Source: Cyanosarcina radialis HA8281-LM2 (lineage in GTDB: Bacteria; Cyanobacteriota; Cyanobacteriia; Cyanobacteriales; CCAP-1448). Taken from it: 64,000 bases of DNA. A program made the translations under genes and the position numbers. Numbering within the stretch: the stretch's first letter is position 1; each line of letters opens with the position of its first letter. The stretch covers positions 1 through 64,000 of the forward strand of contig JAHHHA010000003.1 in the NCBI GenBank assembly GCA_019359615.1, in the 5' to 3' direction. Shown one piece after another: positions 7,136 to 57,503 of the stretch. The notes under the pieces are model-generated. The model had not been told where the DNA came from. It made no database searches and saw nothing but the letters and a program-made list of their open reading frames with translations.

Positions 7136-8899
7136 ATGTTTCCCATCGATCGCATCGCGGATAAACCACTAGGTACAGTCATCCAAGGCTCGCTGGCTCA
7201 AGGATTAGAGGTGCGCTTGCACCCAGATGTCTCTGTAGAAGATATGCGCGTCGGCAAATTCTTAGTAGTACGAGGCGTTAGATCGGATTTTTTCTGCATT
7301 CTCACCGATGTCACCTTGGGAACCTCAAGTGCCCGCATTGTGGCTAATCCTCCTCAACCGGAAGACGATTTTTTGCAAGCAGTCTTAGCTGGCAGCGGGA
7401 CTTATGGCACGATTAATCTCACGCCGATGTTGATGCTCAATCGAGAGCCAAATTTCCCAGAACTGAAAAATGGCTCGGCTAGCAATGGCAAAAATGGGAA
7501 AAATGGGAAAGCTACAAGTAAAGCCGCTGCGATCGCTTCTTTTCAGGCGCAAAGCAGTACGGAAATGCAATTGCTACCAGTAAAGACCATTCCCAGCCAT
7601 TTCAGCCAAGTTTATGATGCCAGCGATCGCGATTTTCGAGCAGTATTCGGTTGGGAAGACGATCCCCATCGCCGCAATTTTAATATCGGCGAACCGTTGG
7701 ATATGGAAGTGCCCATCTGTTTGGATTTAGATCGGTTTGTCGAGCGCAGCAACGGCGTTTTTGGCAAATCGGGAACTGGCAAATCTTTCTTAACTAGATT
7801 GCTGCTATCGGGGATTATTCGCAAGCAAGCAGCAGTTAACTTAATTTTTGATATGCACTCGGAATACGGTTGGGAAGCGGTGCGGGAAGGGAAGCAATTT
7901 AGCACCGTCAAAGGATTGCGCCAACTTTTCCCCAATCAAGTGCAGATGTACACCCTCGATCCCGAATCTACCAAGCGCCGGGGAGTTCGGGACGCGCAAG
8001 AATTATATCTGAGTTACGACCAAATTGAAGTTGAAGATATCAAACTAGTAGGAGCAGAATTAGGGCTGTCAGAGGCGAGTTTAGATAATGCCAACATTCT
8101 TTATGGCGAATTTGGCAAATCTTGGATCGTGCAGTTGCTCAATATGACTAACGAAGAAATCCAAATGTTCTGCGATGAAAAGCGCGGTCATAAGGGTTCG
8201 TTAATGGCGCTGCAACGCAAACTTCTACGCCTAGAAAATCTCAAATATATGCGGGCGGCTTCGCCTCAGAATTATATCAATCAAGTATTGCAATCGATCG
8301 AAGCTGGCAGGCACGTAGTCATCGAATTTGGCTCTCAAGCAGATATGCTCTCTTATATGCTGGTAACAAATATGATTACCCGCCGGATTCACGGTGCTTA
8401 CGTGCGCAAAGCCGAGAAGTTTTTGCAGAGCAAAAATATTAACGATCGCCCGCGTCAATTAGTAATTACGATCGAAGAAGCGCACCGTTTTCTCGATCCT
8501 AGCATCGTCCACAGCACTATTTTTGGGACGATCGCTCGCGAAATGCGGAAATACTTTGTCACTTTATTGATCGTCGATCAACGTCCTTCGGGAATCGACA
8601 ACGAAGTCATGTCGCAAATTGGCACTAGAATTACCGCTTTACTCAACGATGAGAAAGATATCGAAGCGATTTTTACGGGTGTTTCTGGGGCGGGGAATTT
8701 GCGATCGGTATTAGCGAAACTCGATTCTAAGCAACAAACTTTAATTTTAGGTCATGCCGTGCCGATGCCAGTCGTAGTTCGCACCCGTCCCTACGACGAG
8801 AAATTCTATGCCGAAATTGGCGATGCCGATTGGGAAGAAATGCCAGACGATGATGTCTTTGCTGCCGCTGAAGCTGCTAAAGCCGACTTAGGTTTTTAA
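7136..8899 (+). CDS. HerA/VirB4-type P-loop ATPase (DUF87-like)
   Basis: 587 residues. An N-terminal beta-rich region (HAS-barrel-like, about 1-110) is followed by a low-complexity linker of Lys, Asn and Gly (KNGKNGKNGK at about 118-128) and a RecA-type ATPase with Walker A GKSGTGKS at 210-217. DMHSEYGW follows the next strand, IEEAHRFL (about 446-453) carries the acidic Walker B pair, and LLIVDQRPSGI leads to a TRITALL arginine region. HerA proteins pump or translocate DNA, usually with a NurA nuclease. No NurA lies nearby, so the substrate is open. ATG start. A DUF1152 gene follows on the same strand. Confidence 0.85.
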   Translation: MFPIDRIADKPLGTVIQGSLAQGLEVRLHPDVSVEDMRVGKFLVVRGVRSDFFCILTDVTLGTSSARIVANPPQPEDDFLQAVLAGSGTYGTINLTPMLMLNREPNFPELKNGSASNGKNGKNGKATSKAAAIASFQAQSSTEMQLLPVKTIPSHFSQVYDASDRDFRAVFGWEDDPHRRNFNIGEPLDMEVPICLDLDRFVERSNGVFGKSGTGKSFLTRLLLSGIIRKQAAVNLIFDMHSEYGWEAVREGKQFSTVKGLRQLFPNQVQMYTLDPESTKRRGVRDAQELYLSYDQIEVEDIKLVGAELGLSEASLDNANILYGEFGKSWIVQLLNMTNEEIQMFCDEKRGHKGSLMALQRKLLRLENLKYMRAASPQNYINQVLQSIEAGRHVVIEFGSQADMLSYMLVTNMITRRIHGAYVRKAEKFLQSKNINDRPRQLVITIEEAHRFLDPSIVHSTIFGTIAREMRKYFVTLLIVDQRPSGIDNEVMSQIGTRITALLNDEKDIEAIFTGVSGAGNLRSVLAKLDSKQQTLILGHAVPMPVVVRTRPYDEKFYAEIGDADWEEMPDDDVFAAAEAAKADLGF

Positions 8900-48230: not shown

Positions 48231-49829
48231 ATGCATACTTCCACTCAAGTTAGCACTTTGATACCTGAAGAAATTTTGGCTCTCAACGATACTCGGTTGT
48301 CGATCGTTATAGTCAACTACCGCACGCCAGTTCTGACGATCGATTGCTTGAGATCGCTGGCCGACGAGGTGCGATCGCTGCCAGGAACTAGGGTAGTAGT
48401 GACCGACAATGCTTCTGGGGACGGCTCGGTGGCACAGATCGCCGCGGCCATTGCCACCGAAGGCTGGAGCGAGTGGGTATCATTTCTCCCCCTAGATGGC
48501 AACAGGGGTTACTCTGCTGGTAATAATGTGGCGATTCGAGAGGCGCTGCAATCGCCCCATCCCCCATCTTACGTGTTGTTACTCAATCCAGATACGATCG
48601 TGCATCCGGGGGCACTGCGGGCACTAGTAGATTTTATGGACGAGCATCCCGAAGCGGGAATTGCTGGCAGTCGCCTGGAAGATCTAGACGGGACACCCCA
48701 ACATTCTGCCTTTCGCTTTCATACTGTTTTGAGCGAACTAGATTCTGGTTTGCGATTGGGTTTAGTTTCAAAATTATTAGCTAAATCGATAGTTGCACCT
48801 CCCGTCTCAGAAGTAGCCTGTCAAACAGATTGGGTAGCTGGTGCCAGTACGATCGTCCGTCGCGAGGTATTTACATCTGTAGGCTTGCTGGATGAAGGCT
48901 ATTTTCTCTACTTTGAGGAATGCGATTTTTGCCTCCAGGCCCGCAAAGCTAACTGGAGTTGCTGGTACGTGCCAGAAAGCCGAGTCGTCCACTTAGTCGG
49001 CCAAAGTTCTGGCGTGACCGATACCAAATCTCCTGCCAAACGCCGCCCTCAGTATTGGTTTGAATCTAGGCGGCGATATTTCCTCAAAAATCACGGTTGG
49101 CTGTACGCTGCCATCGCCGATCTCGTTTGGGCCGTTAGTTTTGCTTTGTGGCGAGCGCGTCGCCAAGTTCAAGGTAAGCCAGATCTAGATCCGCCCCACC
49201 TGCTGGGCGATTTTCTGCATCAAAGCGTGCTGCTCGAACCTAAATTGCCTAGCTTCGCTACTACCCAGCCACCGCACGAGAGAGAAATTACAATCGAACA
49301 AACACAAAGCATTGCCGCCCCCCCTTTAAGCCTATGGCAGCAAATTCGAGAAGATTGGGTCGCTCACGGCCGCGATTGGACTAAGCCAGGGTTTCGAGCA
49401 GTAGCGGTGCAGCGATTTGGAGTTTGGCGAATGCAGATCGAACTCAAGTGGCTGCGCGCTCCTTGCAGTATTATCTATCGGATGTTGTATCGCAAGATTC
49501 GCAATATTTATGGGATAGATTTGCCTTATACCGTCAAGCTCGGTCGTCGGGTTATCGTCGAACATCAAGGGGCGATCGTCATTCATGGATACTGCACGAT
49601 CGGCGACGATTGTATTCTCAGGCAAGGAGTAACGCTAGGCAATCGCTATCTAGAGCGCCCGCTCGAGGCACCCAAATTAGGTACTGGCGTTAAGGTCGGC
49701 GCTGGCGCGAAAATCCTGGGCAACGTTACTGTTGGAGATGGTGCCAATATTGGTGCTAACGCCGTGGTACTTTCAGATATTCCGCCAGGAGCAACAGCGG
49801 TCGGCATCCCAGCCAAAATTATCGACTAA
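48231..49829 (+). CDS. Fusion of GT2 glycosyltransferase and hexapeptide acyltransferase
   Basis: 532 residues. Residues about 20-310 form a WbbL-type GT2 (VIVNYRTPVLTIDCLRSLAD, NASGDGS, LLLNPDTIVHPGAL, DEGYFLYFEECDFCLQARKANW). After a linker of about 80 residues, about 395-532 is a serine acetyltransferase-like left-handed beta-helix: PYTVKLGRRVIVEHQGAIVI, GDDCILRQGVTLGNR with the catalytic His replaced or displaced, GTGVKVGAGAKILGNVTVGD, ANIGANAVVLSDIPPGATAVGIPAKI. One polypeptide may thus add a sugar and O-acetylate it. The N-terminal half is a paralogue of 44827-45849. The stop codon overlaps that of the convergent Wzc-like gene. Confidence 0.9.
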   Translation: MHTSTQVSTLIPEEILALNDTRLSIVIVNYRTPVLTIDCLRSLADEVRSLPGTRVVVTDNASGDGSVAQIAAAIATEGWSEWVSFLPLDGNRGYSAGNNVAIREALQSPHPPSYVLLLNPDTIVHPGALRALVDFMDEHPEAGIAGSRLEDLDGTPQHSAFRFHTVLSELDSGLRLGLVSKLLAKSIVAPPVSEVACQTDWVAGASTIVRREVFTSVGLLDEGYFLYFEECDFCLQARKANWSCWYVPESRVVHLVGQSSGVTDTKSPAKRRPQYWFESRRRYFLKNHGWLYAAIADLVWAVSFALWRARRQVQGKPDLDPPHLLGDFLHQSVLLEPKLPSFATTQPPHEREITIEQTQSIAAPPLSLWQQIREDWVAHGRDWTKPGFRAVAVQRFGVWRMQIELKWLRAPCSIIYRMLYRKIRNIYGIDLPYTVKLGRRVIVEHQGAIVIHGYCTIGDDCILRQGVTLGNRYLERPLEAPKLGTGVKVGAGAKILGNVTVGDGANIGANAVVLSDIPPGATAVGIPAKIID

Positions 49830-52141
49830 TCTTTAGCTAGCGACTCTGAAAGTGCAGCGGTGCGATCGGTAGTTGTCGGTATCAGCCTGTCCCAACTGGG
49901 GCGCGAGCGCCCTACTTGATTGGCCACAATTCCCAACAGCGGCAAGCGAAATGCTTGCAATCGCTCTATCGCTTCTAAGACGGCAGAGCGACTGGTTTTT
50001 TGGAGTCCTACTACCATTAAGATGCCATCGGTATTGGCGGCCAAAAAGTTGGTATCGATCGTATCGGTTAAGTGAGGCAAATCGTAAATTACCAGATCGA
50101 AGGTTTTCTCTAATTCCCCCATTAGCTTCTTCAAGCGAGATGACTCCAGCAATCTCATAGAATTTAGCTGCGGTTGGCCCGCTGTCAGCACGAACAGATT
50201 TTCGGTTCCAGGCACTCGTCGGATAAACTGTTCGGGAGATAGCGGCTGAGATAGAAGTTCGTTCAATCCGTTCTCATTAGGTAAATCTAAGCTCAGATGG
50301 ACATCTGGTATAGATAAATTAGCATCGACTAACAGCACGCGCCGATCTGTAGCTGCCGCTGACTGTGCTAGTTGCAGGGCGACGGTAGTTTTACCATCTC
50401 CCGGTTCGACGGAGCTAATGGCCAAAGAGCGAATGGGCGCGGCAAAGAGAAAACGAGTGCTGCTATAAAGAGAATTAAAAGCTTTGAGAAATTGGGCCGT
50501 GGCTTTATTGTTAGTTCGATCGGTGAAAGAAGTAAAAGTCGGCGGTGAATTTGGCGCGCCCTTAACCTCATGGGGCGGAATAGTCCCTAAAACTGGCACT
50601 GATGTAGCGTCTTGAATATCTTCAGAGCAATAGAAGATATTGCGATATTTTTCGATCGCTATCGCTACGATCAGGCCTAATAGCAGACCTCCCAATATCC
50701 CGGCTATGAGTTTCTTCGGACTGCTAGTGTCGGCAGGCAGATAATTCCCATCGCTATCTTGAGGAACGCTAGCGTCAGCAATTAGTTTCCAAGGGAATTG
50801 TTTTTGTGCGGCTTCTACTCGCAGCGTTTCTCGCTGAGTCTTTAGTTGGGTAAAGGTTTGGGTAGTAATATCTAGTTGCTGCTGCAAGTTACTATATCGA
50901 CGGGCAACATCAGGAAATTTCAAGGCTTGTTGTTCGTAAGTATTTCTCGCATCTGCTAATGCCTGTTCGCGAATTTCCAAAACTTGAATTTGATTTCCCG
51001 TACTAACCAATTGATCGATCAGTTTTTGTCGCAGTTCGGCTTGGGGTTTTTGCAGTTGTGAAGTTTGTAAAGGTGTTATATTACTACCAACTAGCTGCTG
51101 AGTTTCTTGTTGCAGTAAATCTGTTAGTTGTTGTCGTTGTTCCTCAAGAGATTGAATGATTGGATTGTCAGGAGTGAAACGGGCAGATTGAATCGCAATC
51201 TGCCTTTCTGTATCTTTAATTTGAGCGATTAAATTTTTATATTCAGGAGCTTGATTAAAAGTTGCTGCTGCGATCGCTTCATTTGGATTTAAAGCCAATT
51301 GCTTTTGCAAGCTGGTATACAGCCCCCTTTGTTCTTCCAATAATCCTTGAACTTGTAATTGTTGAGCCTTTAATTGCCGCACTTGAGAAAATAGTTCTTC
51401 GCTTAGAACTTTTGGATCGCTCAACTGATACTGCTGCTGCATTTTTTGTACTTCCAATTGCAGGCTAGCAATATTTCTTTGTAGGTCTCCTGTCGTCTGA
51501 TCGATAAATTCAGCCGCTTTATCAATCCGATCTTTGCGTTCGTCAATACTATAGTTTAAATACCTGGCTTGAACTTTCTCTAAGACGAACTGCGCTCGCT
51601 CTGGGTCTAGATCTTCATAGCTAACTTGGATGATTTTCGTATCGTCTAGCTTGGTTTCGCCGCCCAATCGCTCGACGATTAATCCCTTACTGAGAGTATT
51701 TAAATTAAAAGTTTGATACTTTTGTTGAACGTCCTTAACAATATCGTTTAAGATATCTTGGCTCTGTAAAACCTTAATTTGGGTGGGATAATCGACCGTA
51801 AACAGGGCTAAGAGATTGGGAGTAGCTCCTGCTGTTCCAGTTCTAGCTAGAGTGCTAGGTTCGGTAGTTCTCTCTTCTACGGCGATCGGCTCGATTAAAA
51901 GCTGGAAATTTCCTGCATATGTTTTAGCCGTTCTCAAGGTCAAAAACAACGCCCCCAGCGTCGTGAGAGTAGCAATACCAACTATCGGTAAGGCTTGTCG
52001 CCGCACGGTCCTCAAGAGCGGCCACAGATTCAGTCCGCGTCTTGAGGGCTGGCTGAAATCATCTCTGTCGATGAATGACTCTTCAGTTAACTGTTTGCTA
52101 TTGGTAGCGAGTTCGAGTTGAGAGTCCCGTTCTTTTTCCAT
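49826..52141 (-). CDS. Wzc-like polysaccharide co-polymerase with BY-kinase-type ATPase
   Basis: 771 residues. A Wzz domain with a membrane helix at about 47-67 (IVGIATLTTLGALFLTL), a long coiled-coil region (about 185-460, rich in Gln and Leu) and a second helix at about 478-497 (LIAGILGGLLLGLIVAIAI). The cytosolic ATPase has Walker A VEPGDGKTTVALQL, Walker A' VLLVDANL and Walker B LVIYDLPHL. The C-terminus (TTTDRTAALSESLAKD) has no tyrosine cluster, so autophosphorylation of the usual Wzc tail is unlikely. It controls chain length and export in Wzy-type systems. ATG start. Confidence 0.93.
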   Translation of the reverse strand: MEKERDSQLELATNSKQLTEESFIDRDDFSQPSRRGLNLWPLLRTVRRQALPIVGIATLTTLGALFLTLRTAKTYAGNFQLLIEPIAVEERTTEPSTLARTGTAGATPNLLALFTVDYPTQIKVLQSQDILNDIVKDVQQKYQTFNLNTLSKGLIVERLGGETKLDDTKIIQVSYEDLDPERAQFVLEKVQARYLNYSIDERKDRIDKAAEFIDQTTGDLQRNIASLQLEVQKMQQQYQLSDPKVLSEELFSQVRQLKAQQLQVQGLLEEQRGLYTSLQKQLALNPNEAIAAATFNQAPEYKNLIAQIKDTERQIAIQSARFTPDNPIIQSLEEQRQQLTDLLQQETQQLVGSNITPLQTSQLQKPQAELRQKLIDQLVSTGNQIQVLEIREQALADARNTYEQQALKFPDVARRYSNLQQQLDITTQTFTQLKTQRETLRVEAAQKQFPWKLIADASVPQDSDGNYLPADTSSPKKLIAGILGGLLLGLIVAIAIEKYRNIFYCSEDIQDATSVPVLGTIPPHEVKGAPNSPPTFTSFTDRTNNKATAQFLKAFNSLYSSTRFLFAAPIRSLAISSVEPGDGKTTVALQLAQSAAATDRRVLLVDANLSIPDVHLSLDLPNENGLNELLSQPLSPEQFIRRVPGTENLFVLTAGQPQLNSMRLLESSRLKKLMGELEKTFDLVIYDLPHLTDTIDTNFLAANTDGILMVVGLQKTSRSAVLEAIERLQAFRLPLLGIVANQVGRSRPSWDRLIPTTTDRTAALSESLAKD

Positions 52142-53000: not shown

Positions 53001-53546
53001 ATGAACGTCATTTGTACTGAAATCCCTGATGTCTCGCTCGTCGAACCTACAGTTTATCAAGACGATCGCGGTTTTTTTTATGAAAGTTACAACCAAAAAA
53101 GATTTATCGATCGAACTGGAGTAGCCACTAATTTCGTCCAAGACAATCATTCTCGTTCGCAGCAAAACGTCTTGCGCGGCTTGCACTACCAGATCGAGCA
53201 GCCTCAAGGCAAACTGGTACGAGTGGCAGTGGGAGCGGTATTTGATGTCGCTGTAGACCTGAGAAAGAGTTCTCCCACCTTTGGCAAGTGGGTGGGGGCT
53301 ATCCTCAGCGCTGAGAACAAAAGACAACTTTGGGTACCGCCAGGATTTGCTCATGGTTTCTTAGTAGTTTCAGAAGTAGCAGAAGTTTTGTATAAGACAA
53401 CTGATTACTACGCTCCCGAACACGAACGCTGCTTGCTGTGGAACGACCCGAAGATAGCGATCGCTTGGCCGTTGTCTGGGGAGCCGATTCTATCGGCCAA
53501 AGATCGAGACGGTCAGCCTTTAGATGCTGCTGAGGTTTTTCCATGA
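53001..53546 (+). CDS. rfbC: dTDP-4-dehydrorhamnose 3,5-epimerase
   Basis: 181 residues, RmlC cupin fold. RGLHYQ carries the catalytic histidine, GKLVRVAVGAVFDVAVDLR is the core strand pair, and WVPPGFAHGFLVVSE and the Y/D region TTDYYAPEHERCLLWNDP complete the site. It converts dTDP-4-keto-6-deoxyglucose to dTDP-4-keto-rhamnose, the third step of dTDP-L-rhamnose synthesis. The stop overlaps the rfbD start by four bases. ATG start 53001 without a strong ribosome binding site. Confidence 0.96.
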   Translation: MNVICTEIPDVSLVEPTVYQDDRGFFYESYNQKRFIDRTGVATNFVQDNHSRSQQNVLRGLHYQIEQPQGKLVRVAVGAVFDVAVDLRKSSPTFGKWVGAILSAENKRQLWVPPGFAHGFLVVSEVAEVLYKTTDYYAPEHERCLLWNDPKIAIAWPLSGEPILSAKDRDGQPLDAAEVFP

Positions 53547-54430
53547 AACGGATCTTATTAATTGGCGCTAACGGACAATTGGGTCGAGAATTAGCTTTAA
53601 CCCTTGCTCCTTTGGGAGAGTTAATCAGTGCCGATAGGCAAACGATCGATCTAACCGACCCTGCTAGGATGCGCCCAGCAATCTTGGCAGTTAAACCCGA
53701 TTTAATCGTCAATGCTGCGGCTTACACGGCTGTAGATCGAGCCGAAACCGAATCGGAATTGGCTGATTTAATTAACGCCACAGCGCCAACGATCTTGGCT
53801 GAAACCGCCCGCCAAATCGATGCCGATTTAATTCACCTCTCCACAGATTACGTCTTCGACGGGCGCAAAAATACTCCTTATCTGGAAGAAGACCCGACTA
53901 ACCCCATCGGCGTTTACGGTAAATCTAAGCTAGCTGGAGAAGAAGGCATCAAACAAAGCTGCGATCGCTATCTGATTCTCAGAACTGCTTGGGTTTATGG
54001 CACTTATGGCAAAATTAATTTTGTCAAAACGATGCTGCGTTTGGGGGCGCAGCGAGAGGAAGTGCGAGTAGTTGTAGATCAGATCGGTAGTCCTACTTGG
54101 GCTGAAGATATTGCTAGTGCGATCGCTACGTTAGTAAGTAATTCTGCTCCTCCTGGTGTCTATCACTTTACTAACAGCGGCGTAGCTAGTTGGTACGATT
54201 TTGCCAGTGCTATTTTTGCCGAAGCCGAACGCCTTGGTTTCCCCTTGAAAGTAAAGCGTCTAGTACCGATTGCCACCTCTGAATATCCAACACCTGCCCA
54301 GCGTCCGGCTTATTCAGTGCTTTCTACCAAAAAGATCTCAGAAGTTTTGGGCACTTATCCTCAACACTGGAAATCGGGGCTGCAACAAATGCTGGCACAA
54401 CTTTTTAGCCAAGATGCTTCCTGCTTCTAA
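53543..54430 (+). CDS. rfbD: dTDP-4-dehydrorhamnose reductase
   Basis: 295 residues, SDR fold: GANGQLGRELA nucleotide loop, VNAAAYTAVDRAE, the active-site STDYVFDG and YGKSKLAGE (Tyr and Lys of the triad), ILRTAWVYG. It catalyses the last step to dTDP-L-rhamnose with NAD(P)H. Translationally coupled to rfbC (ATGA overlap). The rhamnose donor fits the WbbL-type transferases at 44827 and 48231. Confidence 0.96.
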   Translation: MKRILLIGANGQLGRELALTLAPLGELISADRQTIDLTDPARMRPAILAVKPDLIVNAAAYTAVDRAETESELADLINATAPTILAETARQIDADLIHLSTDYVFDGRKNTPYLEEDPTNPIGVYGKSKLAGEEGIKQSCDRYLILRTAWVYGTYGKINFVKTMLRLGAQREEVRVVVDQIGSPTWAEDIASAIATLVSNSAPPGVYHFTNSGVASWYDFASAIFAEAERLGFPLKVKRLVPIATSEYPTPAQRPAYSVLSTKKISEVLGTYPQHWKSGLQQMLAQLFSQDASCF

Positions 54431-54456
54431 ACTCCTAAACTCCTAAACTCCTGTTC
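54424..54456. repeat. AAACTCCT repeat between rfbD and rfbA
   Basis: Three CTAAACTCCT units directly after the rfbD stop, a member of the heptamer-type repeat family found at other gene ends in this window. Confidence 0.7.
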
Positions 54457-54457
54457 T

Positions 54458-55531
54458 ATGAAAGCGATAATTCTCTCAGGCGGTAAAGGCACGAGACTGC
54501 GACCTCTTACTTATACGGGTGCTAAACAATTAGTTCCCGTCGCTAATAAACCCATCCTTTGGTATGGCATTGAAGCGATCGTGGCGGCTGGAATTACTGA
54601 CATCGGCATTATTATTAGTCCCGAAACGGGAGAGGAAGTTAAAGCTAAAACTGGAGATGGCGATCGCTTTGGGGCCAAAATCACCTACATTCTGCAAGAT
54701 GCCCCTTTGGGTTTAGCCCATGCGGTCAAAGTCGCCCAACCATTTCTAGAAGATTCGCCATTTTTAATGTACCTGGGAGATAACTTAATTCAAAGTGACT
54801 TGCGCCTCTTTTTAGAACACTTCCAAACTGCCAGTTTAGATGCTTTGATTATGCTGCGCGAGGTGGCTAATCCGACTGCATTTGGGGTAGCAAAGCTAGA
54901 CGAAAGCGGGCGAGTATTGCAATTAGTGGAAAAGCCTAAAATTCCTCCTTCAAACTTAGCATTGGTAGGAATTTACTTGTTTTCCCATATCGTCCATCAG
55001 GCGATCGCTAATATCGCCCCTTCAGCTAGAGGTGAATTAGAAATTACTGATGCCATCCAATATTTGATCGACGGGCCCAAAAACGTCGAAGCCCGCCAGT
55101 TAGAAGGATGGTGGCTGGATACAGGTAAAAAAGACGATCTCCTCGAAGCAAATCGCTTGATTCTCGATAGTTGCCCTGACTGTAACATTTTGGGTGAAGT
55201 TGACGAAAACAGTCAGGTAATAGGGCGAGTGCAAATTGGAGCAAATTCTCGCATCGTCAACTCTACCATTCGAGGGCCGGTGATAATTGGCAACAACTGC
55301 CACTTAGAAAACTGTTTTATCGGTCCTTACACTAGCATTGCCGATGGAGTGACGGCGATCGATACCGACATCGAACATAGCGTCATTTTGCAAGGGGCAA
55401 AAGTAATTGGCATTCATCAGCGGATAGTTGATAGCGTCATCGGACAGCGAGTGCAACTTAAGGTAGCGCCACAGCGCCCTAAAGCTTTACGTTTCCTCAT
55501 TGGCGATGATTCCCAAATAGAGTTGGTGTAA
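54458..55531 (+). CDS. rfbA: Glucose-1-phosphate thymidylyltransferase, long form
   Basis: 357 residues. N-terminal nucleotidyltransferase (LSGGKGTRLRPLTYTGAKQL, PILWYGIEAI, MYLGDNLIQ, LVEKPKIPPSNLALVGIY) and, unlike short RmlA proteins of about 290 residues, a C-terminal left-handed beta-helix (VIGRVQIGANSRIVNSTIRG, VIIGNNCHLENCFIGPYTSI). This is the long RmlA type, common in cyanobacteria and archaea. It forms dTDP-glucose, the first step of the rhamnose pathway. The dehydratase gene rfbB is not in the window. ATG start directly after the repeat. Confidence 0.92.
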   Translation: MKAIILSGGKGTRLRPLTYTGAKQLVPVANKPILWYGIEAIVAAGITDIGIIISPETGEEVKAKTGDGDRFGAKITYILQDAPLGLAHAVKVAQPFLEDSPFLMYLGDNLIQSDLRLFLEHFQTASLDALIMLREVANPTAFGVAKLDESGRVLQLVEKPKIPPSNLALVGIYLFSHIVHQAIANIAPSARGELEITDAIQYLIDGPKNVEARQLEGWWLDTGKKDDLLEANRLILDSCPDCNILGEVDENSQVIGRVQIGANSRIVNSTIRGPVIIGNNCHLENCFIGPYTSIADGVTAIDTDIEHSVILQGAKVIGIHQRIVDSVIGQRVQLKVAPQRPKALRFLIGDDSQIELV

Positions 55532-55652: not shown

Positions 55653-57503
55653 CTAAACTAGTTTTTTCTGTTTAAACTCCTTTCTAAACTCTCTGTAAGC
55701 CCTATTAATTGCTTGCATATAAAACTTGGCATTAGAAGTAGGATTCAGATCGGGGTGATACTCTCTAGCCAGCCGACGATAAGCTTGTTTGGCCTCGTTA
55801 AGGCTGGCATTCGGCTCGATTTTCAAGACTTGCCACCAATCGCCTGAGAGGATGCTGTCAACAGTAGATTCATCGCTGCTAATAGTTTGATGCCAGATGG
55901 CGATCTGCCCCTTACCATTACCGCTGACTAGAATTTTTCCATCGATACTAAAGGCAACAGGATAGCTGCTAGCTAAAGTTTGTAGCAGTTCTCCAGTATT
56001 TAGATTCCACAGCTTCACAGTTCCATCGTTGCTACCGCTGGCCAGAGTTTGTCGATCGCAACTTAGGGCAACAGAAAACACGCCTGCGGTATGACTGCTT
56101 AAGGTACGAATCAGTTCGCCAGTGCAGAGATTCCACAATTTAATCGTGCCGTCTCTACTCCCGCTGGCGAGGATTTTTCCGTCTGAATCGATCGCTACAG
56201 AGAACACCCAACCTGAATGCCCTGTTAAGGTACGAACTAATCCCCCATCTATTAAGCGCCAGATTTTGATTGTTCGATCGCTACTGCTGCTCGCGATTGT
56301 CTGTCCGTCTGGGCTAATAACAACAGATAGCACGCTGTCGGTATGTCCGTTGAGGGTCCGCAATATCTGTCCTGTATGAGCATTCCAAATTCTAATTAGG
56401 CGATCGCCCCCGCCACTAATAACTTTGCTCCCATCTGGACTGTAAGCAACTGAGTAGATAAAACCAGAATGGCTGGAGGCAGAATTCAAGTAGAAAAAAG
56501 TACGAAGAAAAGTTTTAGCCTTGAAATTCCAAGCAGTTATTTTACTATCGAAACTTCCACTAACGATCGTTTGTCCGTTGGGACTAATGGCAACAGCAGC
56601 AGCTTCTTTTTCCTGCCCCATAAAGGTAAAAAGATGTTTGCCAGAGTTCAAATCCCACAGCTTCACAGTGCGATCGTCACTACTACTAGCCAGAGTGCGA
56701 TCGTCATGACTAATAGCCACTGAATTAACTGTAGACAAGTGACCTTTAAGAATGTTTTTTTGCTGCCATGATTGAGATTTTTTGGGGGCAATAGCCGTTA
56801 ATTTTAGTTCTGATTCGGCTGTGAATTCAACGTTTTTAAACTTTGTAAAATTGAGATTTCCGTTATCTTGCAAAGCAGATATTTGAGCGGCAATGGACTG
56901 TAATTCTTGTTCTATCTTATCGGTTGAGATACTTTTTTCTAGAGTTTGAGCTTTAAGTAACTGCAATTCTTCTTCTATTTCCAGGGCCGCAAATTTCTGT
57001 TGCCATGCCAATTCAGCTAATAGTGGACTTAGTTCTTGAAGTGCTTGGTTATATGCTTCCTGCCATGAAATTTTATCCTCCATTCGCTCAAAAACTTGTG
57101 CGACCGATTCTTGACTGCCAGGCCGATCGATAATTTTCAATAGACCGTAAACAGCTAGTCCCACAACTGCACCTGCAACGGTAATAGGAGCAATACCCAA
57201 GCTGATGGCAGTCCCTTTAAAGGCTAACCCCATACCACCAACAGTTACAGAAACTCCTGCTCCCCCTAATCCTCCTAAAGCCGCAGCACTGAAAGCCGAA
57301 GCATCTCCTTCGACGATCGCTCGAAAAACTCCATAACTAGCAGCACCTGCAACTGCTCCAGCGGCTGTCACTGGAGCGATTCCCAATCCCACCGCCGTTC
57401 CTGAAAAAGATAATCCCATGCCACCAAGGGTGACAGAAACCCACGCCCCTGTAGCTGCACCTCCAGTTACAAATGCTGCTCCTGGTGCTGAGTTTGTTGC
57501 CAT
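55653..57503 (-). CDS. Glycine-rich membrane-segment / WD40 / DnaJ-domain fusion protein
   Basis: 616 residues. Residues about 10-125 hold a duplicated glycine-rich hydrophobic unit: GGMGLSFSGTAVGLGIAPVT then AGAVAGAASYGVFRAI (about 27-64), and GGMGLAFKGTAISLGIAPIT then VAGAVVGLAVYGLLKII (about 88-125). Each could form a glycine-zipper membrane hairpin. A coiled coil follows (about 130-225), then about seven WD40 repeats (about 250-535; units with SPDGQTIASSSSDRTIKIW). The C-terminal 60 residues are a J domain (WWQVLKIEPNASLNEAKQAY, HPD in REYHPDLNP), which would recruit an Hsp70. No known family joins these three parts that I recognise. No ribosome binding site is obvious before ATG 57501-57503. 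Gene neighbours (rfbA, purA) give no functional hint. Confidence 0.9.
   Translation of the reverse strand: MATNSAPGAAFVTGGAATGAWVSVTLGGMGLSFSGTAVGLGIAPVTAAGAVAGAASYGVFRAIVEGDASAFSAAALGGLGGAGVSVTVGGMGLAFKGTAISLGIAPITVAGAVVGLAVYGLLKIIDRPGSQESVAQVFERMEDKISWQEAYNQALQELSPLLAELAWQQKFAALEIEEELQLLKAQTLEKSISTDKIEQELQSIAAQISALQDNGNLNFTKFKNVEFTAESELKLTAIAPKKSQSWQQKNILKGHLSTVNSVAISHDDRTLASSSDDRTVKLWDLNSGKHLFTFMGQEKEAAAVAISPNGQTIVSGSFDSKITAWNFKAKTFLRTFFYLNSASSHSGFIYSVAYSPDGSKVISGGGDRLIRIWNAHTGQILRTLNGHTDSVLSVVISPDGQTIASSSSDRTIKIWRLIDGGLVRTLTGHSGWVFSVAIDSDGKILASGSRDGTIKLWNLCTGELIRTLSSHTAGVFSVALSCDRQTLASGSNDGTVKLWNLNTGELLQTLASSYPVAFSIDGKILVSGNGKGQIAIWHQTISSDESTVDSILSGDWWQVLKIEPNASLNEAKQAYRRLAREYHPDLNPTSNAKFYMQAINRAYREFRKEFKQKKLV

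Follow-up and report, generated by a model that had tools for sequence, protein, structure and literature searches.

The 64,000-nucleotide stretch of DNA analysed here (the window; contig JAHHHA010000003.1 of the cyanobacterium Cyanosarcina radialis HA8281-LM2) carries an intact open reading frame (ORF) on the reverse strand at 55653-57503, which starts with ATG and encodes a protein of 616 residues. The product combines two glycine-zipper (GZ) units, a tail of the PspA/Vipp1 type, a WD40 propeller and a C-terminal J domain; gene and family are referred to below as WDJ, for GZ-WD40-J. We propose that WDJ probably serves the ESCRT-III-like proteins Vipp1 and PspA as a membrane-anchored J-domain co-chaperone, recruiting DnaK in the manner of auxilin. 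The proposal centres on the segment between the GZ units and the propeller, described as a coiled coil in an earlier note made from the sequence alone. The stretch is indeed helical, and the generic description gives way to a specific one: by homology, this segment corresponds to the alpha4-alpha5 tail of the bacterial ESCRT-III proteins PspA and Vipp1.

A profile of the tail built from 17 homologues was searched against all PDB sequences (177,635) and the whole C. radialis genome. All PDB matches below an E value of 0.8 were to Vipp1/IM30, the best (4e-11) covering Vipp1 residues 163-218. In the genome, the profile recovered its own gene and PspA/Vipp1 genes at 8e-10, 5e-9 and 1.5e-7, the sole other match being a weak one of 22 residues at 0.001. 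The Pfam model PspA_IM30 matches 15 of the 17 family members individually; in the window protein the match (residues 130-187, E 4e-4, profile positions 159-208 of 220) is sub-threshold. An N. punctiforme Vipp1 cut at residue 191 lacks alpha5 and alpha6, and one cut at 219 lacks just alpha6; residues 163-218 hence take in the last part of alpha4 and the whole of alpha5. The invariant or near-invariant positions F138, R140, M141, E142, E157, F171, E175, E179, L180, L183 and K184 have as Vipp1 counterparts, in the same order, F168, R170, M171, E172, E187, F197, E201, E209, L210, L213 and K214. Mean conservation is 0.60 in the tail, nearly that of the propeller and J domain, against 0.15 in the adjoining linker, and the tail is therefore under constraint. 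Helix alpha0 and the family-defining alpha1-alpha3 hairpin are absent, the Pfam match being confined to the positions given above and a local hairpin profile finding no hairpin in WDJ members. Because it lacks the hairpin and adds WD40 and J domains, we place WDJ outside the PspA/Vipp1 family, as a J-domain protein with a tail that by its sequence is PspA-derived.

The propeller and the J domain with its intact HPD motif, both of which had been recognised from the sequence, were confirmed by Pfam. Six WD40 stretches of the window protein pass individually and a local profile finds seven in homologues, consistent with the run of about seven repeats expected of a propeller. The J domain scores 49.5 bits (PF00226, cut-off 27.8) and the HPD motif is intact in all 57 J domains from the sampled WDJ loci, as expected of the class of J-domain proteins without a zinc-finger type body. 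No model for the whole chain exists in NCBIfam or PADLOC. The sole PADLOC match of the chain was of the WD40 region to one large model, which does not identify an anti-phage system; this PADLOC hit, HEAT-ARM_XIII, and the matches to many WD40 Pfam sub-families were rejected as cross-hits of the propeller.

The N-terminal duplication reported in the earlier note is beyond chance. The two GZ units fill the first 128 residues, the second starting exactly 62 residues after the first, and they agree at 31 of 57 positions, a value reached in none of 100,000 shuffles (shuffle maximum 21). Structure prediction of this part, which had been suggested as a check, was carried out with AlphaFold2. An initial model of residues 1-215 from 21 sequences (pLDDT 62) was replaced by one of the GZ-GZ module from 57 sequences, which reached a pLDDT of 86 and a pTM of 0.74 and places helices at 6-26, 42-65, 69-88 and 104-126, with a beta hairpin within each unit. 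The module has no sequence match in Pfam, PHROGs or PDB, the model has no Foldseek match in PDB or BFVD, and the Pfam glycine-zipper models match none of the 57 modules; it thus corresponds to no glycine-zipper or pore family defined by a curated model or solved fold. The proteins of those Pfam models share with GZ a glycine at each fourth or eighth residue and paired helices, whereas in the predicted GZ fold a beta hairpin lies between the two helices. As modelled, the GZ module is a new domain family with a confidently predicted fold, and it is probably embedded in the membrane. A tblastn search for carriage by mobile elements (the N-terminal part against plasmids, the stand-alone module against phages) gave no match, a negative that is weakened by low-complexity masking.

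The distribution of the module was surveyed in two samples, 386 cyanobacterial genomes and 391 genomes of the order to which the window belongs; a GZ match of any kind was found in 60 of the former and 143 of the latter. It occurs in three settings, namely WDJ, PspA proteins (GZ-PspA) and stand-alone genes. In PspA proteins that keep helix 0 (L073, L082, L086, L088 and others), GZ-GZ is placed between helix 0 and helix 1, and in a PspA protein of the C. radialis genome without a recognisable helix 0 (C13, L090) it lies N-terminal to the PspA body. Since Vipp1 binds membranes through helix 0, the module is at the membrane side of PspA. Some GZ-PspA proteins end after the hairpin, without the alpha4-alpha5 tail (L054:9766-10569, L133:7028-7843, L142:6556-7326); in L054, the tail-less gene is followed by a WDJ gene that bears the tail. 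WDJ supplying the missing tail in trans could apply at most to this GZ-hairpin neighbour in L054, since some tandem-hairpin PspA neighbours of WDJ retain a short degenerate tail between their hairpins.

PspA-family genes are also physically linked to WDJ. At 11 of 74 sampled family genes, a PspA-family gene lies on the same strand no more than three genes upstream, mostly immediately so, and three of these upstream neighbours overlap the WDJ gene by 17 bp; those neighbours that were tested reach 47-108 bits with PspA_IM30, above its cut-off of 33.9. PspA-family genes adjoin WDJ in several genera, and in the gene tree this adjacency recurs at scattered points of a 32-member clade, having changed six times or more. 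Strong matches to tandem-hairpin PspA (E below 1e-30 with the profile of a tandem-hairpin neighbour) were found in 11 of the 391 genomes of the order. The WDJ gene is present in all 11 and within 1.5 kb in 10, the eleventh having WDJ at a contig end; the naive p value for this co-occurrence is 5e-9, which common descent makes larger in truth. GZ-PspA is likewise enriched in genomes carrying WDJ (7/11 versus 66/380, p 0.001, counted by hand). In other genomes, a gene of the 7-hydroxymethyl-chlorophyll a reductase (HCAR)/BciB type (best PDB match 5dqr, 3e-138) lies beside or near WDJ, GZ-PspA, tandem-hairpin PspA and some stand-alone GZ genes. This common neighbour suggests, as far as gene order can, that WDJ, GZ-PspA, tandem-hairpin PspA and some of the stand-alone GZ genes descend from one locus. 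It is a frequent divergent neighbour, found at L053, L054, L056, L057, L062, L067, L131-L133, L135, L137, L142, L150, L153 and L173.

Table 1. Features of the WDJ gene and its product, with coordinates in the window.
Feature	Position	Strand	Basis
WDJ protein, 616 aa: GZ-GZ, Vipp1-type tail, WD40, J domain	55653..57503	-	Intact ORF; homologues keep the domain order
GZ unit 1, aa 8-66: helix, beta hairpin, helix (predicted)	57306..57482	-	Repeat test; AlphaFold2 model
GZ unit 2, aa 70-128: predicted fold as unit 1	57120..57296	-	Repeat test; AlphaFold2 model
PspA/Vipp1-type alpha4-alpha5 tail, aa 131-190	56934..57113	-	Profile against PDB and own genome; Pfam PspA_IM30
Variable linker, aa 191-245	56769..56933	-	Mean column conservation 0.15 (tail: 0.60)
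WD40 propeller, aa 247-540	55884..56765	-	Pfam WD40, 1e-66
C-terminal J domain, aa 552-610	55674..55850	-	PF00226, 3e-12; family-invariant WW, HPD and N
HPD motif, aa 583-585	55749..55757	-	Conserved in 57/57 family J domains

Elsewhere in the window, the run at 53001-55531 presumably comprises genes of the dTDP-rhamnose type (RfbC, RfbD and a glucose-1-phosphate thymidylyltransferase, assigned by eye), and beyond it the ORF at 49826-52141 is, also by eye, one that we take to be Wzz/tyrosine-kinase-like. At other loci, a second WD40-J gene without GZ lies directly downstream of WDJ (L058:6307-7434, L128:2706-4208), the copy in L128 having its J domain at the N-terminus. In L134, mobile-element-like ORFs (L134:6161-7565) split WDJ inside the Vipp1-type tail (G416), and the split copy is followed after 100 bp by a gene for a triple-hairpin PspA. 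Stand-alone GZ-GZ genes were found in the C. radialis genome at C19:36706-37098 (L077:8731-9144 and 8357-8731) and at L074, L075, L076, L079, L080, L081 and L128. Often the next gene, at a spacing of -1 to 33 bp, encodes a small nuclease of 120-139 residues, most copies of which share an N-terminus of the NPxQKLVRGxIRD type. The nuclease domain is interchangeable, either HNH (Pfam 4e-13) or PD-(D/E)XK-like (GRIDILT..EIIEVK), a swap that in sequence looks like that of a conflict system; PADLOC returned only weak general HNH matches for these pairs.

The arrangement of the chain points to a mechanism. The four short GZ helices, in two hairpins, would hold WDJ in or on the membrane, and an even number of membrane passes would keep the propeller and J domain cytosolic, alongside DnaK as required. 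The tail, as the alpha5 docking helix, would dock WDJ on Vipp1/PspA polymers, the propeller would bind a further partner or the polymer surface, and the J domain would deliver DnaK, which would remodel or remove the coat as auxilin and Hsc70 uncoat clathrin. In a bolder form, to which we lean less than halfway, disassembly of bacterial ESCRT-III would be the dedicated task of WDJ. Embedded in the membrane and auxilin-like, this J protein would plug into Vipp1/PspA coats by means of a domain-swap helix borrowed from the polymer itself and call Hsp70, with the four-helix GZ anchor as a new element common to a subset of PspA. The likeness to auxilin is one of logic, a C-terminal J domain joined to a part that binds a membrane coat; no sequence kinship is claimed, and for WDJ the coat would be ESCRT-III-like, not clathrin, with a GZ membrane anchor in addition. 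The combination seen in the earlier note, of a membrane module, a binding platform and an Hsp70-recruiting J domain tied to membrane stress, fits this scheme through Vipp1/PspA in particular; what finds no support is the notion of a membrane effector or pore.

Published work provides a setting for such a factor. VIPP1 of Chlamydomonas is both assembled and disassembled by HSP70B with CDJ2 and CGE1 (PMC10602608), and Synechocystis Vipp1 binds DnaK2 and DnaK3 (PMC4297356). Cyanobacteria are reported to have no CDJ2 homologue (PMC3720927), and the literature searched names no J partner for cyanobacterial Vipp1/DnaK2, one paper doubting that any exists. The job proposed for WDJ is that of CDJ2, a J protein targeting Hsp70 to Vipp1, whereas the chain differs by published accounts, with no WD40, GZ or Vipp1 tail reported for CDJ2. 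A review has raised the idea that membrane-associated chaperones could remove IM30 from membranes in the way that clathrin is stripped by auxilin and Hsp70 (PMC6882379); a membrane-bound WDJ protein, equipped with alpha5 for docking and with a J domain, would fit this role. The words DnaJ and WD40 are absent from a 2024 PSP survey (PMC11237479), and we found no description of the architecture in the domain libraries or the literature searched, subscription papers and preprints lying outside our reach. In that sense the suggestion of a new-looking protein type holds; its novelty is tempered by the recurrence of the architecture in about 73 genomes (~19%, counted by hand from the match listing) of the 391 sampled from the order and by repeats that are widespread.

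Several observations weigh against WDJ being a co-chaperone for Vipp1 and PspA. It lacks the hairpin that builds most of the ESCRT-III lattice, and a few divergent sampled members have GZ and WD40, mostly also J, and no detectable tail. The GZ helices are modestly hydrophobic, no more than two of them exceeding 1.6 on the Kyte-Doolittle scale, so that membrane insertion is something we infer. The co-occurrence p values ignore common descent, the neighbour of the window gene is purA and not pspA, and tandem-hairpin PspA is absent from the C. radialis genome. None of the seven described Synechocystis J proteins is of the WDJ type (PMC9948308); WDJ is hence at most a lineage-specific solution and, as it is also confined to about a fifth of the genomes sampled from the order, not a general Vipp1 co-chaperone.

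The missing tails would be accounted for if the tail were a relic of a GZ-PspA gene that lost its hairpin and gained WD40-J, leaving a general membrane-bound J protein whose clients are picked by the propeller. The GZ-GZ-(hairpin)-tail order common to GZ-PspA and WDJ and the shared HCAR/BciB-type neighbour, which fits descent from one locus, are in keeping with this; we nevertheless hold it unlikely, as the tail, unlike the adjoining linker, comes close to the propeller and J domain in conservation, and PspA-family genes remain adjacent to WDJ in several genera. WDJ might instead regulate Vipp1/PspA without disassembly by Hsp70, the tail capping or nucleating the polymer, the propeller sensing stress and the J domain only folding a partner. 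Reasoning from a study of the role of Vipp1 helix alpha5 (PMC8281802), an alpha5 without a hairpin could sit on a hairpin tip and block chain growth, yet the invariant HPD argues for real stimulation of DnaK and makes this improbable. Least of all do we expect the pore-forming or toxic effector envisaged in the earlier note, triggered by damage in a stress or phage response and controlled by the J domain. GZ-GZ is glycine-rich, helical and unclassified, and its stand-alone copies pair with small nuclease genes; however, it matches no known toxin, pore or defence protein (Pfam, PHROGs, PADLOC, PDB, BFVD), has no immunity partner, sits beside the membrane-binding helix of PspA, itself a membrane protector, and in WDJ belongs to a conserved chromosomal gene.

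A membrane-anchored co-chaperone for Vipp1 and PspA thus remains our favoured reading of WDJ. Eukaryotic ESCRT-III is taken apart by Vps4, and chloroplasts use Hsp70 and CDJ2, whereas little is known of how the bacterial relatives, Vipp1 and PspA, are disassembled. WDJ is a good and concrete candidate for the missing J protein that would let Hsp70 dismantle bacterial ESCRT-III-like coats, and its putative built-in docking helix makes the question directly testable.
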